Shown piece after piece: positions 396 through 7,060 of a DNA stretch of 7,060 nt. Under the pieces are notes generated by a model that worked only from the letters and a program-made list of their open reading frames with translations, searched no databases and had not been told where the DNA came from. The stretch comes from an uncultured Chlorobiota bacterium (GTDB taxonomy: Bacteria > Bacteroidota > Kapaibacteriia > OLB7), in assembly GCA_946481475.1 (NCBI GenBank), contig CAMLOB010000197.1, forward strand, positions 1-7,060. The letters run 5' to 3'. Position 1 is the first letter of the stretch. Every line of letters starts with the position of its first letter. A program made the position numbers and the translations under genes.

Positions 396-492
396 ACCGG
401 CGGCACTGCGATGCGTTCTTTATCGAACCCATACGCTGCAAGCGACACATTTTGCATATTCGCTCCATGAGGTCAATCGTCAACCATTCCGT

Positions 493-497
493 GGAGG
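493..497 (+). promoter_or_regulatory. Shine-Dalgarno sequence that decides the beta-helix gene start
   Basis: GGAGG lies five bases upstream of a GTG codon at 503-505. It is the only strong ribosome-binding site near the candidate starts (TTG 452, ATG 467, GTG 503) and places the start directly before a clean signal peptide. Confidence 0.7.
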
Positions 498-502
498 CTC
501 CC

Positions 503-2047
503 GTGGTTTCTCGTCTGCTTATCCGATTCATTCCGATACTCCTGCTTGTTTTCTCCAGATCGATTGCAACGGCCGAGACGATTCACGTCGGTTCCGGCTA
601 TCCGTACGGTACGGTGTCGAGTGCGGCAGAAGATGCGGGGCCGGGAGATACGATCCTCGTCCACGGCGGGGTCTACGGCGGCGGAGAATTCATCGAAGGA
701 TTGCAGGGGAGGAGGGATGCCTGGATTGTTATTGCTGCGGTTCCCGGAGAAGAAGTCGTCTTTGAGGGGGGGACCGAAGCCTGGCATCTGAGCGATGTGG
801 CCTGGCTCTATATCCGTGGATTCGAGTTCAGGGGACAACGTGGGAACGGTGTGAACATCGATGACGGCGGCAGCTATGATACGCCGTCTCACCACATTGT
901 GATCGACGAATGCCGGTTCCGCGATATGGATGCATCGGGAAACAACGATCTGCTGAAGCTCTCCGGACTCGATTCGTTCGAGATTCAGGATTGCATATTT
1001 ACTAATGGAGCCGGCGGCGGAAGCGGTGCGGACATGGTCGGCTGTCACTACGGACTGTTCACATCCAACCGGTTCGAGAACATGGGGAGCAATGCGATAC
1101 AGGCGAAGGGGGGGACGCAATTCATCCGGATCGAGCGAAACGTTTTTCTCCACTGCGGCCAACGTGCCGTCAATCTGGGGGGCTCCACGGGACTCGAGTT
1201 TTTCCGACCGATCGACGCTCCGTTCGAAGCGGCCGATCTTCAGGTCTACGCCAACGTCTTCGTCGGCTCGGTTGCTCCGATCGCATACGTCGGCAGCGTC
1301 CGGGTGGATGTGACCAACAATACGATCTGGCTGCCGGAGAACTGGGTGCTCAGAATCCTTCAGGAGACGGTCGACCCGAATCGCTTCCTCTCATGCGGCG
1401 ACAACATCTTCCGGAACAACCTTGTCGTGGTCGACAACAGTCGGTCGCGTGATGTGAACGTCGGACCGAACACCCGTCCGGAGTCGTTTCTTTTTACCAA
1501 TAATCTGTGGTACAATCTGGACGATCCGGACTGGGAGGGACCTGATCTGCCGGTGCCGGAATCGAACAGCGTTATATCGGAGGATCCGTTGCTTGCCGAT
1601 CCGGAGCGGTTTAACATGATAATTTCTCTCAACAGTCCGGCGGTCGGGGCCGGAGCGCCGGTCGAGTTGCCGGAGCGGGATTTTCTCGGCAACAAGTACC
1701 GTGCTGAGAGATCGATCGGTGCGGTTGAGGGGAATCCTCTTCTTACCGATGGAGTTCCGGATGGTGCAGTCAATTCCTCCGGAGCGGTCGTCCGCATCTA
1801 TCCGAACCCGGCAAGCGGGGATTGCCGGCTTGCCCTGAATCTTCCGGATGAAACGCCGGTCAGAGTTCGATTGTTCGATCTGAGAGGTAAACTGCTGGGA
1901 ACGATCTTCGAGGCCGGGATGAGCAGGGGAGAGCATACCGTACCCATTGTCCTCCCCGGCGAAGACGGCATCTACACATTGCAGGTGGAACTGACCGACG
2001 ATGTCCTGACGACACAGGTCGTCCGGTTGCGAGGGGGAGATGAGTGA
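503..2047 (+). CDS. Secreted right-handed parallel beta-helix protein with C-terminal T9SS sorting domain
   Basis: With the GTG start at 503 the product is 514 residues; in-frame TTG 452 and ATG 467 would add 17 or 12 residues in front of the signal peptide. Residues 1-24 (MVSRLLIRF, a leucine-rich core, then ATA before E) look like a Sec signal peptide. Residues 25 to about 410 have the short N-x-F and N-x-I turns of pectate-lyase-like beta-helices, with a GDTILVHGGVY opening coil and a closing segment (NSPAVGAGAP, then RDFLGN, then SIGAVEG) typical of this fold. Residues about 429-514 form a T9SS type A sorting domain: VVRIYPNPASG, VRVRLFDLRGKLLG, GIYTLQVE and a final VVRLR. The protein is therefore probably exported by Sec, moved across the outer membrane by T9SS and anchored or released. 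The catalytic residues of a polysaccharide lyase were not identified, so enzymatic activity is unproven. The gene overlaps the following glycosyltransferase gene by 8 nt. Confidence 0.88.
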   Translation: MVSRLLIRFIPILLLVFSRSIATAETIHVGSGYPYGTVSSAAEDAGPGDTILVHGGVYGGGEFIEGLQGRRDAWIVIAAVPGEEVVFEGGTEAWHLSDVAWLYIRGFEFRGQRGNGVNIDDGGSYDTPSHHIVIDECRFRDMDASGNNDLLKLSGLDSFEIQDCIFTNGAGGGSGADMVGCHYGLFTSNRFENMGSNAIQAKGGTQFIRIERNVFLHCGQRAVNLGGSTGLEFFRPIDAPFEAADLQVYANVFVGSVAPIAYVGSVRVDVTNNTIWLPENWVLRILQETVDPNRFLSCGDNIFRNNLVVVDNSRSRDVNVGPNTRPESFLFTNNLWYNLDDPDWEGPDLPVPESNSVISEDPLLADPERFNMIISLNSPAVGAGAPVELPERDFLGNKYRAERSIGAVEGNPLLTDGVPDGAVNSSGAVVRIYPNPASGDCRLALNLPDETPVRVRLFDLRGKLLGTIFEAGMSRGEHTVPIVLPGEDGIYTLQVELTDDVLTTQVVRLRGGDE

Positions 2048-2741
2048 CGTGAAGAGTCGAGCGGCAAATCATGGCGGAGGGGAACCGACCGAACGACTCG
2101 CCGCGACCTGTGCGGTCATCGTCAACTATCAGACACCCGATCTTCTCGAAGGGGCGGTCCGCTCGTTCAATCAACACTATCCGAACGTGCCGACCATTGT
2201 CGTCGACAACGGATCGCAGGACAACTCCCGCGAAGTCATCACACGGTTATGCGATGAACTCGAATCGGTCAGCGCCGAGTTCCGGACCGACAATGCCGGC
2301 CACGGTCCGGCAATGCACGACGTGATCGCCCGGAACGAGTACGAGTTCTACTTTTTTCTGGACAGCGACACGATCACGCATGAGGGGGGATTCCTTGAGA
2401 AGATGCTGGCCTTCTACGCCGATCCTCTGGTCTACGGGGTCGGCAAGGTTGCACCGTTCAACCGACGGGGATTCCACGACGAAGAGGAAGGAGTGCCGAT
2501 GCTGATCGCCGCCTACATGCTGATCCGCTCGTCGATCTACCGGACGCTCCCTCCGTTCGAACATCACGGTGCTCCGGTCGCGCGGAATTTTTATGAGGCG
2601 GGGAAGAAGAACTATCGAATGCAGGATTTCGATATTGATCGATTTATCGACCACCTGCACCAGGGGACCGTCTCCAGATTCGGATATGGACTCGGACTGA
2701 AAGGAAAGCTCAATTATCTGCTGAACAAACTGGGATTATGA
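2040..2741 (+). CDS. Family 2 glycosyltransferase (GT-A fold)
   Basis: The 233-residue product starts at ATG 2040 inside the 3' end of the beta-helix gene, just after a purine-rich GAGGGGGAG that serves as ribosome-binding site. Family 2 features run in order: CAVIVNYQTPDLL (residues 24-36), VVDNGSQDNS (54-63), NAGHGPAMH (85-93) and FFLDSDT (105-111). The DSD is the DxD-type motif that binds the metal and nucleotide-sugar diphosphate. No membrane segments are evident, so it should act at the cytoplasmic face. It is short for the family: the region after the DxD (residues 112-233) is compact and ends in NYLLNKLGL. Donor sugar and acceptor are unknown. The 8-nt overlap upstream and 4-nt overlap (ATGA) downstream suggest translational coupling with both neighbours, and a role in surface or cargo glycosylation is an inference from that. 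Confidence 0.85.
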   Translation: MSDVKSRAANHGGGEPTERLAATCAVIVNYQTPDLLEGAVRSFNQHYPNVPTIVVDNGSQDNSREVITRLCDELESVSAEFRTDNAGHGPAMHDVIARNEYEFYFFLDSDTITHEGGFLEKMLAFYADPLVYGVGKVAPFNRRGFHDEEEGVPMLIAAYMLIRSSIYRTLPPFEHHGAPVARNFYEAGKKNYRMQDFDIDRFIDHLHQGTVSRFGYGLGLKGKLNYLLNKLGL

Positions 2742-3220
2742 GAGGATACGTTCGGTTGACCGGTCTCTTCTTCTGTCTCCTGCTGACCGCTGCTGCCGGC
2801 AACGGCTGCAAGGAAGGGTGCGACGGCGTCGTCTGCGCACCGGCCCCTCCGGCGCTGGTGGTGACGGTGGAAGATACGCTTGCGGTGATCGACACCGTCA
2901 CGCGATACGACACGACGCTGATGGATTCGGTCCGCGTTCCCGACACGACCATCACAACCGTTCCGACCTTTGAGGCGACCGTGACGCTCCATCCGGTGTC
3001 GGGCGATGCTGTCCAGTCATCGGTCCGGACGCTCGATCCGGTGTCGGTCGACACAACCTACGTCCTCACCGATCCTTCCGGACTCGCCCACACTGACTAT
3101 GCCCTGATCGCCCGGCGGGGAGATCGGGCCGATACGTTGACGGGACTGACGATAAGAACGGTGGAGGGGTGTTGCGGGTATGATGTGATCGGGGTGTATA
3201 CGATGAAGTTGCCGGAGTAG
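2738..3220 (+). CDS. Small exported protein, possible lipoprotein, function unknown
   Basis: The 160-residue product starts at an ATG that overlaps the glycosyltransferase stop (ATGA) and ends at TAG. Residues 1-20 form a basic, then hydrophobic export signal (LFFCLLLTAAA). Cys24 follows in AAAGNGC; this is only a loose lipobox (Gly-Asn-Gly before Cys), so lipidation is uncertain. Further cysteines lie at 28 and 33 (GCDGVVC), followed by APAPPALVVTVEDTL, and a late Cys pair lies at 145-146 (GCCGYDV). The middle (residues about 45-80) is rich in Asp-Thr and Thr-Thr with alternating valine, suggesting an extended beta structure. The layout (signal, Cys cluster, one beta domain, late CC) resembles small envelope proteins of the FCB group, but I cannot name a family. 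Context suggests an envelope location with the two preceding genes. Confidence 0.7.
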   Translation: MRGYVRLTGLFFCLLLTAAAGNGCKEGCDGVVCAPAPPALVVTVEDTLAVIDTVTRYDTTLMDSVRVPDTTITTVPTFEATVTLHPVSGDAVQSSVRTLDPVSVDTTYVLTDPSGLAHTDYALIARRGDRADTLTGLTIRTVEGCCGYDVIGVYTMKLPE

Positions 3221-3282: not shown

Positions 3283-3294
3283 CAACGTGGAATG

Positions 3295-3369
3295 TGGGCG
3301 GTGAGAGATTCGAACTCCCGACCCTCTGGGTGTAAACCAGATGCTCTGAACCAACTGAGCTAACCGCCC
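3295..3369 (-). tRNA. tRNA-Val, anticodon UAC
   Basis: The 75-nt gene folds into a complete cloverleaf. The acceptor stem is GGGCGGT with ACCGCCC, the D stem GCTC with GAGC, and the anticodon stem TCTGG with CCAGA. The anticodon loop is TTTACAC, giving anticodon TAC. The variable loop has five bases, and the T arm is GGGAG-TTCGAAT-CTCTC with one G-U pair. The discriminator base is A. The 3' CCA is not encoded (the gene is followed by CATT), so it must be added by CCA-adding enzyme. The gene reads GUA and, by wobble, other valine codons. Confidence 0.96.
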
Positions 3370-3532: not shown

Positions 3533-3534
3533 TG

Positions 3535-3899
3535 TGGAGATGGCGGGATTCGAACCCGCGTCCGAAGAGCGACTCGTGAGGCGTCTACGCTGCATAGTCA
3601 ATCTATTTAAGTCTCGTCCGCCGTCATCCCGATTGACGGGGCCTCGGGCGGACCAGTGGATAAAATCTCGTCCGCGGAACCTCCACTCGTTCCGCCGACC
3701 AGTCTGTCTGAAATCGACACCCGCCTCGGAACCGACAGACAGATTCCGGGCGGATGCTCGCCGGGTTAATTACGCAGCGAGACGGTACTCGTATGAGTCC
3801 GCACTTACAGTTCGCTCATTGTGGGGTAACGCACCCAATGAGCAGGTGCGACAGCGCAACCGCACGACATCTTCTCCCCGTCGAAACCAAAGCATCCCC
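3535..3899 (-). ncRNA. ssrA: tmRNA (transfer-messenger RNA)
   Basis: The 365-nt gene has the full one-piece tmRNA layout. The 5' end GGGGATG (3899 to 3893) pairs with CATCTCC before the final A at 3535 to give a 7-bp acceptor stem with one G-U pair. The start continues TTTGGTTTCGACGGGG, the usual tmRNA D-like region, and the 3' end has a T arm, GCGGG-TTCGAAT-CCCGC. A region before the tag (TCATTGGGTGCG and its partner) fits the first pseudoknot. The resume site GTAAGTGCG precedes the tag frame. tmRNA, with SmpB, rescues ribosomes stalled on mRNAs without a stop codon and tags the product for proteolysis. The CCA end is not encoded. No convincing promoter or terminator was found for it. Confidence 0.95.
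3770..3802 (-). other. tmRNA proteolysis tag reading frame (ADSYEYRLAA)
   Basis: On the - strand the resume codon is GCG (3802 to 3800), read as Ala-Asp-Ser-Tyr-Glu-Tyr-Arg-Leu-Ala-Ala and ended by TAA at 3772 to 3770, with a second in-register TAA overlapping downstream (TAATTAA). The Leu-Ala-Ala ending is the usual degradation signal recognised by ClpXP-type proteases. The ten-residue length is within the usual range. Confidence 0.93.
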
Positions 3900-3950
3900 A
3901 TGTTCGTGCTCCTTCGTGATTTGTGCTTCACTTGTGTATGTGCAGACTCT

Positions 3951-4034
3951 GTCAGATGAAGAGCACCACAAAGACACTAAGGACACAAAGAGATCACAAA
4001 GGGTTGTCAAGGTACAAAGAACCGGACATCTGAC
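3951..4034. repeat. CACAAAG repeat cluster bounded by an 8-bp inverted repeat
   Basis: GTCAGATG (3951-3958) and its exact complement CATCTGAC (4027-4034) bracket a run of related words: CACAAAGACAC, GGACACAAAG, ATCACAAAGG and GTACAAAG. Similar words in the opposite orientation (CTTCGTG, TTTGTGC, CTTGTG) lie just to the left at about 3910-3935, so the whole 3905-4015 stretch is an imperfect inverted repeat. This resembles a small non-coding dispersed element. No target-site duplication was seen and no transposase is present. Confidence 0.5.
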
Positions 4035-4088
4035 GAAGTTCTCCCCGTTGAATTTTGTTTTTTCGTACATCCTCTTTCCGATCACTTC

Positions 4089-4119
4089 TTTGTCGCCTGA
4101 TGCCGATTCAGTACATTCG
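4089..4119 (+). promoter_or_regulatory. Probable Bacteroidetes-type promoter of pheT
   Basis: TTTG at 4089-4092 is followed, after exactly 19 nt, by TACATTCG at 4112-4119. The second element matches TAnnTTTG at all but one defined position, and the 19-nt spacing is the textbook value for Bacteroidetes sigma. Transcription would begin near 4125, leaving a leader of about 40 nt before the ATG. No attenuator or T-box is visible in that leader. Confidence 0.5.
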
Positions 4120-4166
4120 GTGATCTTTCTTGAAGTAGAACTTTACAGCAGGGGACAACCGCTCAG

Positions 4167-6572
4167 ATGCCTACCAGTGGAGTGACCGAGTCGGGACTGA
4201 AACGACTCGTGGAATATGATTTCTTACCGGAAACACTTGCGGATCGACTGATTCAACTCGGCCTTGAGGTCGATTCGTTCGATGATCGGGGTGAAAAACT
4301 CAACGGCTTTATCGTCGCCGAGGTTCTGGAGAAGAACCCGCACGAAAATGCCGACAAGCTTTCGGTCTGTACGGTCTCAACCGGCTCCGGCGACCCGGTG
4401 ACGGTCGTCTGCGGTGCGCCGAACGTGGCCGCAGGGCAGAAGATTGCCTTCGCTCCGGTCGGCACGGAAATCCCTGCGGCCGGCTTTACGATTGAGAAGC
4501 GAAAAATCAGAGGTGTCGTTTCCGAAGGGATGATCTGTTCGGAGCAGGAGCTCGGTCTTGGTGAAGGGCATGAAGGCATCCTCGTCCTTTCGCCGGAGTT
4601 GACGCCGGGGACTCCCTTGTCCGATCTGTTCGGCGACGTCATCTACAACGTCGAGGTGACTCCGAACCGGGGCGATTGCCTCAGCCATCTCGGCGTCGCC
4701 CGCGAGATCTCGGCGATCACCGGCAATCCGGTCACTCTTCCGGATGCCGATCCTGTTGAAGGAGAGGAGACGACGGTCGACCTTGTTTCGGTCGAACTTC
4801 AATCCCCCGAACTCTGTCCCCGCTACGCCGCTCGTATCGTCAGAAACGTGAAGATCGGGCCATCTCCGCTCTGGCTGCAGGATGCATTGAAGAAAATCGG
4901 CGTACGACCGATCAACAACGTGGTCGACATTGCAAGCTACGTGATGTTCGAGACCGGGCATCCGCTACACGCCTTCGACTACGATCAGGTAACCGGAAAG
5001 AAGATTATTGTCAGGGGTTCGGTTTCCGGTGAGAAGTTCACGACACTCGACGGCAAGGAACGGGAACTGCCGGAAGGGGCGTTGCTGATCTGCGATGCCG
5101 AACGTCCGGTGGCGATAGCCGGTGTTATTGGTTGAGATTATTCGGAGTTCACCGATTCTTCATCGAACGTACTGATCGAATCGGCCTGGTTCGATCCTTC
5201 ATCCATCCGCAGAACGGCCCGTGCGCTCGGGCTTTCCACCGATGCAAGTTATCGTTTCGAACGGGGAGCCGACATCGGGATTCTGGAGTATGCCGTCAAC
5301 CGGGCTGCAAGCATGATGGCTGAAATTGCGGGAGGAACGGTAACGAAGGGGATTGTGGACGAGTATCCGACTCCGCACGTTCCGACAAAGGTCGATCTTC
5401 GCTTCAGTCGGACCGACGGGATTCTGGGACTGGCAATTGAGCCGGAGCGGCAGATTGCGATTCTCGCATCGCTAGGATTCGAGGTGCTTGATCTCCAGGA
5501 TGAGAGCGTCCGTCTTGGCGTGCCGAGCTGGCGAACGGATGTGACGGGGGAGATCGACCTGATCGAGGAGATCGGCCGGGTTAACGGTTACGGAGAAATT
5601 CCGGCCGACCCACGTGCCATGATCGGATCGTTTGCGGAGGTGGAGCCGTTGCAGGAGACGATCGCCGGAACGCGGCGGTTCTTTGTCGCCAACGGTTTTT
5701 CCGAGGTTGTCGCTCCGAACCAGACCGATCCGGAATCGGCACAACGTTACGGGAAGGCGATTGAGCTGCGGAATGCGCTCGGACTGGATACATCGTTTAT
5801 GCGAACAAATCTGTTGCCGGGGCTGGGGCGCATCGTTGGCCTGAACCAGCGCCGTTCACGTCCGAATCTGCGGCTCTTCGAGATCGGCAAAGCCTTCCGG
5901 GAGGGGAGAGAGGGAGAGGGAACGATTCCGGGGATTGTCGAGGTGGAAGAACTTGCCCTTGTCCTGACCGGGGCCGGAGAGCCGACCGCCTGGGACAGGA
6001 GGGAGTACCAGACCGATCTTTATGATCTGCGGGGCATCATCGATCGCTATCTGGACCATCTCGGTGCACACCGCCGGGATTATCGCCCGGTGGAGGAAGA
6101 ACGCTGGGGGATCGGGCAGCCGGCTCTTGCCCTGTATGTCGATGATGTCGAGATCGGGAGGCTGGGGCCGCTGGATGAGTGGATCTGCAGTCGCTACGAT
6201 CTGATCGGTTGTCCTTCCGTCCTTCTGCTGGATCTGGAAAAGCTGAGCGGATTGAAAGGCAGTACGCCGCAGTATGTCCCTCCATCAAAGTATCCGTCGG
6301 TTGACAGGGATATTTCCCTTGTCCTTGATGCGGGGCTTGCAAATGCACAGGTAGAAGAACGCATTGTAGAGTTGGGGGGGGAGTTGCTTCAATCGATCCG
6401 GTTGTTCGATCTCTATCAGGGGAAAGGAATTCCGGAAGGAAAGAAGTCTTTCAGCTACTCCCTTGTCTTCGGCTCCGGAGAGCGGACACTTGAAGATGAA
6501 GAGGTAGAGAAACAGGTCGGCGAGATTATTGCCGGTCTGGCGAAGTCGTTCGGAGCGGAACTTCGTTCCTGA
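4167..6572 (+). CDS. pheT: Phenylalanyl-tRNA synthetase beta subunit, interrupted by an in-frame TGA at codon 323
   Basis: The frame is 801 codons, close to the usual bacterial PheT length of about 795-800. In order it holds an N-terminal segment ending LIQLGLEVDSF and a tRNA-binding OB domain (residues about 45-155: NADKLSVCTV, VVCGAPNVAAGQK, IRGVVSEGMICSEQELGL). The B3/4 editing domain follows (about 205-375: RPINNVVDIASYVM, PLHAFDYDQVTG), then B5 (about 405-480: PSWRTDVTGEIDLIEEIGRV). The catalytic-like core (about 490-690: FMRTNLLPGLGRI, RLFEIGKAF) and the FDX-ACB anticodon-binding domain (about 704-801: KYPSVDRDISLV) complete it. It joins PheS in the alpha2-beta2 enzyme that charges tRNA-Phe in the cytoplasm. 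Codon 323 (5133-5135) is TGA where the family has the second Gly of GVxGG; normal PheT sequence (DYSEFTDSSSNVLIESAWF) continues in the same frame. The true stop is also TGA. The start is ATG 4167 (AGGGG 12 nt upstream) or GTG 4182; the conserved N-terminal Trp is missing. No pheS is adjacent. Confidence 0.93.
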
Positions 6573-6576
6573 GAGG

Positions 6577-7060
6577 ATGGAGACACGTCAAACAGTAGAT
6601 CAAACGGGGCGGAATATGGATCGGCATCAGGAAGAAATCGTCAGAGCATTCGAGCGACTTCACCGCTCGGTTTCGCTCGTCAGTGAGCGTATCGTTGCGC
6701 TTGGTCGCGACAGAGAAATGCTGCTGGAACGGATCGGCGAGCTCGAGGCGATCAACCTCGAACTCGAATCCCGGATCGCTCAACAGTCCGACGACGAAGC
6801 CCGGATGGGGCGTCGTCTCCGCGAACTGGAAGGAGAAGTGGAACAACTTCAGGCAGAGCGGCAGAGGTTGCTTGACGAGGCGGAGGCCGTGAGAGTCACG
6901 GCAACCGAAAAAGAGCATATCTCACTCGAGCTGCAGAAGGAACTTGATGCGCTTCGGATGCAACTGGAGCAGGTCCGACAAGAGCAACGTCAGGCCGGTG
7001 ATGTGCAAACTCGTGTCGTTGAACTCGAGAGAATGCTGGAAGAGGAGAAGGCATCCGGTG
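6577..7060 (+). CDS. Coiled-coil protein, N-terminal part (runs off the window)
   Basis: An open frame begins at ATG 6577, four bases after the pheT stop, and has no stop through the window end, giving 161 codons so far. A second candidate start, ATG 6616, has GGGGCGG a few bases upstream and may be the real one, because GAGAGG directly abuts the first ATG. The sequence is almost entirely charged and heptad-like (LLERIGELEAINLELESR, LRELEGEVEQLQAERQ, VELERMLEEEK), with Glu, Arg, Gln and Leu dominating and very few Gly or Pro. It has no signal peptide or membrane segment, so a long cytoplasmic alpha-helical coiled coil is expected. The spacing implies one transcript with pheT. In many bacteria the genes after pheT include zapA-type cell-division regulators, so a division-related role is possible, but nothing in the sequence proves it. 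Confidence 0.75.
   Translation, partial: METRQTVDQTGRNMDRHQEEIVRAFERLHRSVSLVSERIVALGRDREMLLERIGELEAINLELESRIAQQSDDEARMGRRLRELEGEVEQLQAERQRLLDEAEAVRVTATEKEHISLELQKELDALRMQLEQVRQEQRQAGDVQTRVVELERMLEEEKASG

Follow-up and report, generated by a model that had tools for sequence, protein, structure and literature searches.

An in-frame TGA in the pheT gene of a Chlorobiota-like metagenome record most likely reflects a base-calling or assembly artefact

The β subunit of bacterial phenylalanine--tRNA ligase (PheRS), PheT, is represented by the profile TIGR00472, and its solved relatives include the Escherichia coli entry 3pco and the Staphylococcus entry 2rhs. The pheT gene considered here lies in the window, that is, the whole stretch of 7,060 nucleotides that was analysed, and it resembles the bacterial family in its length of 801 aa, in its profile score and in the presence and order of five Pfam domains, whereas codon 323, which sits inside a patch of seven changed residues, is broken in the record of the window only (Table 1). 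A described variant of this subunit, E. coli pheT(G318W), concerns the adjoining position: this missense mutant is reported to be editing-deficient, with Trp at Gly318 hindering access to the editing site, while charging activity is kept (PMC4066437). When the window gene is aligned with 3pco, codons 322 and 323 fall on Gly318 and Gly319 of the E. coli subunit, respectively, and the residue mutated in that variant, as it is reported there, thus adjoins the equivalent of the broken codon; in contrast to the missense change, a stop at codon 323 would truncate the subunit from there on. One-directional sequencing errors have been described as well. On the Illumina Genome Analyzer, T accumulation leads to G being called as T increasingly from about cycle 25, with A and C following later, and this is attributed to T fluorophores left in place and assigned to chemistries replaced in 2009 (PMC2745764). 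Error biases vary between data sets: in a further study, G was misread mostly as T in one set, and in HiSeq sets the erroneous base was preferentially G (PMC4787001).

Table 1. Features of the pheT locus in the window, with the basis of each where given.
Feature	Position	Strand	Remarks and basis
Right-handed beta-helix protein	452-2047	+	Weak C-terminal secretion-tail match (PF18962, 21.6 bits, below the cut-off of 27)
Family 2 glycosyltransferase	2040-2741	+	PF00535; 8-base overlap with the end of the beta-helix gene
160-aa protein	2738-3220	+	Lipoprotein-like start; no Pfam match
tRNA-Val (anticodon TAC)	3294-3369	-	Next to the tmRNA
tmRNA	3534-3899	-	RF00023, 142.9 bits; tag ADSYEYRLAA; in divergent orientation to pheT
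pheT (phenylalanine--tRNA ligase beta subunit)	4167-6572	+	801 codons plus stop; broken at codon 323; translation, TIGR00472, Pfam
35-bp patch	5129-5163	+	Seven inferred purine-to-T changes, seven altered residues (321-333); comparison with the P0003 protein, supporting comparison with L001 DNA
In-frame TGA, codon 323 of pheT	5133-5135	+	B3/4 (editing) domain; member of the 35-bp patch
7-bp inverted repeat	5152-5184	+	5152-5158 with 5178-5184; sequence, fold, patch positions
Coiled-coil protein, start (MDRHQEEIVRAFERL...)	6616-7060	+	After pheT; resembles the gene after pheT in L001 (by eye)

With an X placed at the internal stop, the translated frame (801 residues and a final stop) matches TIGR00472 over its whole length with 719.5 bits, above the curated cut-off of 402.65, while the two halves taken singly score 358 and 342.4 bits, both below that cut-off. 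Both halves are in register on the profile (positions 3-321 and 325-798), and the domains tRNA_bind, B3_4, B5, tRNA_synthFbeta and FDX-ACB are all found, in this order. The start of the gene is backed by two relatives (L083 and L084) with a like opening (MPTRRVTESW). The TGA at codon 323 is the single internal stop, and the window record consequently lacks the whole-length open frame of a PheT. The initial annotation had placed this TGA correctly, both in its coordinates and in its frame, and was also right that the sequences on its two sides share one frame and that it falls on the second Gly of the GVMGG segment, a column occupied by Gly in all 120 aligned homologs (the best 120 of 7999 scored). 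Its statements on a possible restart were likewise borne out, as none of ATG, GTG and TTG follows the TGA in frame before ATG 5313, and no Shine-Dalgarno-like stretch that could act as a ribosome-binding site is seen just before the latter.

The remaining genes of the window are given in Table 1. For the beta-helix gene, the closest listed protein (P0243) is identical over 513 residues and comes from a 2468-bp contig; it provides no independent control, since its source is the window's own. Directly upstream of pheT (3900-4166) no pheS is located, and the neighbour on that side is the opposite-strand tmRNA.

The protein search, performed with X at the stop, places first among the best 120 of 7999 scored relatives a near-twin (P0003) of 801 aa, which derives from another assembly (source 'ena', 2823-bp contig), is 99% identical and is open throughout. 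The two proteins differ at 8 of 801 residues, namely 321, 323, 324, 325, 328, 331, 333 and 449. Seven of these eight differences lie within 13 residues (321-333), the other 788 residues holding a single one, and such a concentration was reached in 0 of 1,000,000 random placements. For each of the seven patch residues, a single substitution is the least change needed at the DNA level, from a purine in the inferred P0003 codon to T on the + strand (from G in three cases, from A in three and from A or G in one); since the changes are read back from protein as the smallest change per codon, silent ones are unseen. By this measure, all seven changes (7/7) are purine to T and are clustered in a short stretch. 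The eighth difference, at residue 449 (Arg in the window, Gly in P0003), is not a change to T, and as this Arg is shared, by eye, with a further homolog (P0004), it would represent a change private to P0003. Among the 119 other homologs, Met at residue 321 and Gly at residue 323 are invariant (119/119 each), Ile at residue 328 is found in 118/119 and the strongly conserved Asn at residue 325 in 115/119, and the window is therefore the odd one at several adjacent conserved sites. The gene had initially been regarded as otherwise intact and the TGA as a lone G-to-T change. Neither view can be maintained, as residues 321, 324, 325, 328, 331 and 333 also differ from the near-twin, and the TGA is one of seven inferred changes to T within 35 bases. 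The case for the patch, as read from the aligned proteins, is one that rests on P0003, and P0003 and the window may represent different strains.

The nearest genome relative (L001, 'Chlorobiota bacterium') encodes a PheT protein that is 69-70% identical, and its genus, family and order yielded 1, 5 and 5 genomes, respectively, none of them closer than a 70% identical protein. The comparison with the L001 DNA lends support: 7 of the 11 mismatches in 5128-5164, a region picked beforehand from the P0003 comparison, are purine-to-T, as against 73 of the 774 in the remainder of the gene (Fisher p 2e-5); only six of these seven sites coincide with those derived from P0003, L001 having T at 5157 like the window and 5159 counting instead. 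Tests that do without P0003 set the patch apart only modestly. The densest 37-base interval of purine-to-T differences from L001 is the patch itself (7), with a runner-up of 6 near 5465-5469, and when only codon positions 1 and 2 are considered, the patch holds 4 and ties with an interval near 6357-6367. Residues that no more than one of the 119 homologs shares reach 4 per 13 in the patch and are equally dense near residues 672-674, so that the homolog-only scans (rare residues, and purine-to-T at codon positions 1 and 2) do not single the patch out. Similarly, its T content of 15 in 37 bases (gene mean 8.0) is attained at the same level near 5678 and 6199 in pheT. A search of viral_contigs for same-species DNA with a 34-base exact pattern gave no match.

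We consider that the TGA is a base-calling or assembly artefact and the underlying biology ordinary, with a probability of roughly 0.92. The purine-to-T patch has the look of a string of sequencing or assembly errors rather than of a biological feature: about 35 bases of the contig would carry repeated false T calls, whose simplest source would be the deteriorating end of one or a few reads that the assembler kept where coverage was thin, and one of these false calls would happen to create a stop. The pheT gene of the organism would then be an ordinary full-length gene. Both the attribution to base calling or assembly and the choice between them are what we infer here. A base-call error is the best supported of the four options offered in the initial annotation, given the tight patch of changes towards T and the intact near-twin, but it had been conceived there as a single isolated change, and this part does not stand. 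T accumulation, as described, resembles the patch in that it produces substitutions to T only, hits purines, covers a stretch comparable to a bad read end and leaves no indels (PMC2745764). It also yields C-to-T, and such changes at silent positions of the patch would be invisible. That description deals with reads, whereas the patch is known from a finished contig. T accumulation may be taken as a fitting example for the patch, and not as a demonstrated cause.

Among the alternatives, the one that survives best is that a single event introduced all seven T's within 35 bases and disrupted pheT in a cell or molecule that was itself a dead end, either through error-prone synthesis over a damaged stretch or through damage to the extracted DNA, with purine loss and an A inserted opposite the gap. 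Where a purine is lost and an A is placed opposite the gap, a purine-to-T change results, and all seven inferred changes are of exactly this kind. However, since pheT is essential, a genome mutated in this manner would be too scarce to be assembled unless an intact copy were present, and the near-twin is intact; furthermore, damage to extracted DNA would still amount to an artefact, the change being absent from the organism. A strand or template switch as the origin of the patch was rejected: the rest of the window matches the 44-base patch at 23/44 at best, as it does shuffled patches (21-24 in 20 shuffles), and outside pheT the best matches reach 25/44 in L002 and 24/44 in L001. If such a single event were true, the patch would constitute an unusual one-directional mutation cluster, but we regard it as improbable. 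The same holds, to the same degree, for a purine-to-T-only mutation shower that broke the essential gene in a living cell or an environmental strain of this Chlorobiota-like bacterium.

Less probable still is that the window gene is a decayed second pheT and that the genome carries an intact one at another site, an option which had also been raised at the outset and which we now disfavour. Each of five related genomes (completeness not stated) has one pheT match, free of internal stops. The locus, moreover, appears to be native: a divergent tmRNA is located upstream of pheT both in the window and in two of the five relatives (L002 and L085), while none was found in the 897-1500 upstream bases examined in L001, L083 and L084, and a coiled-coil gene with a like start (MDRHQEEI...) follows pheT in L001. 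A native locus and one pheT match per related genome (5/5) together make a decaying second copy unlikely, and the single difference from P0003 in the 788 residues outside the patch is unlike what a decaying copy would show.

Lastly, although the frame is open on both sides of codon 323 and pheT-like throughout, decoding of its UGA by a suppressor tRNA, as selenocysteine, through reassignment or by stimulated readthrough is highly improbable, since pheT itself terminates with TGA (6570-6572), the listed homologs conserve Gly and not UGA at this column, and the six neighbouring changes would be left without a place in such a mechanism. The tRNA and tmRNA content of the window consists of the tRNA-Val and the tmRNA, and none of the five related genomes has a tRNA-Sec over the Rfam cut-off; matches below it occur in 5/5 of these genomes, and matches were also obtained in 14/14 controls, five of them over the cut-off. 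With regard to readthrough, the inverted repeat proposed to form a stimulating hairpin is present as claimed, but the minimum-free-energy fold pairs its arms elsewhere, the hairpin is thus not predicted to form, and the predicted fold does not stand out (z -0.68, with 44 of 200 shuffled sequences giving an equally good or better one). Base 5157, which is among the changed bases, sits in the 5' arm, so that the repeat in part results from the patch, and on the basis of the modelled fold we judge the repeat to be due to chance. The suppressor tRNA and natural readthrough that had been put forward for this codon find no support here. A near-identical cut-short protein was not found with the 322-aa front half as query, the best of the 120 listed among 6705 being 52% identical; this weighs little, since the window's own front half is likewise not among these 120.

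A stop codon that interrupts an essential gene in frame within a metagenome record can mimic recoding or readthrough, and setting the sequence beside a near-identical protein of a different assembly can expose such a stop as one of a set of one-directional changes. For the Chlorobiota-like bacterium considered here, the TGA in pheT is most likely not a real feature of the organism.
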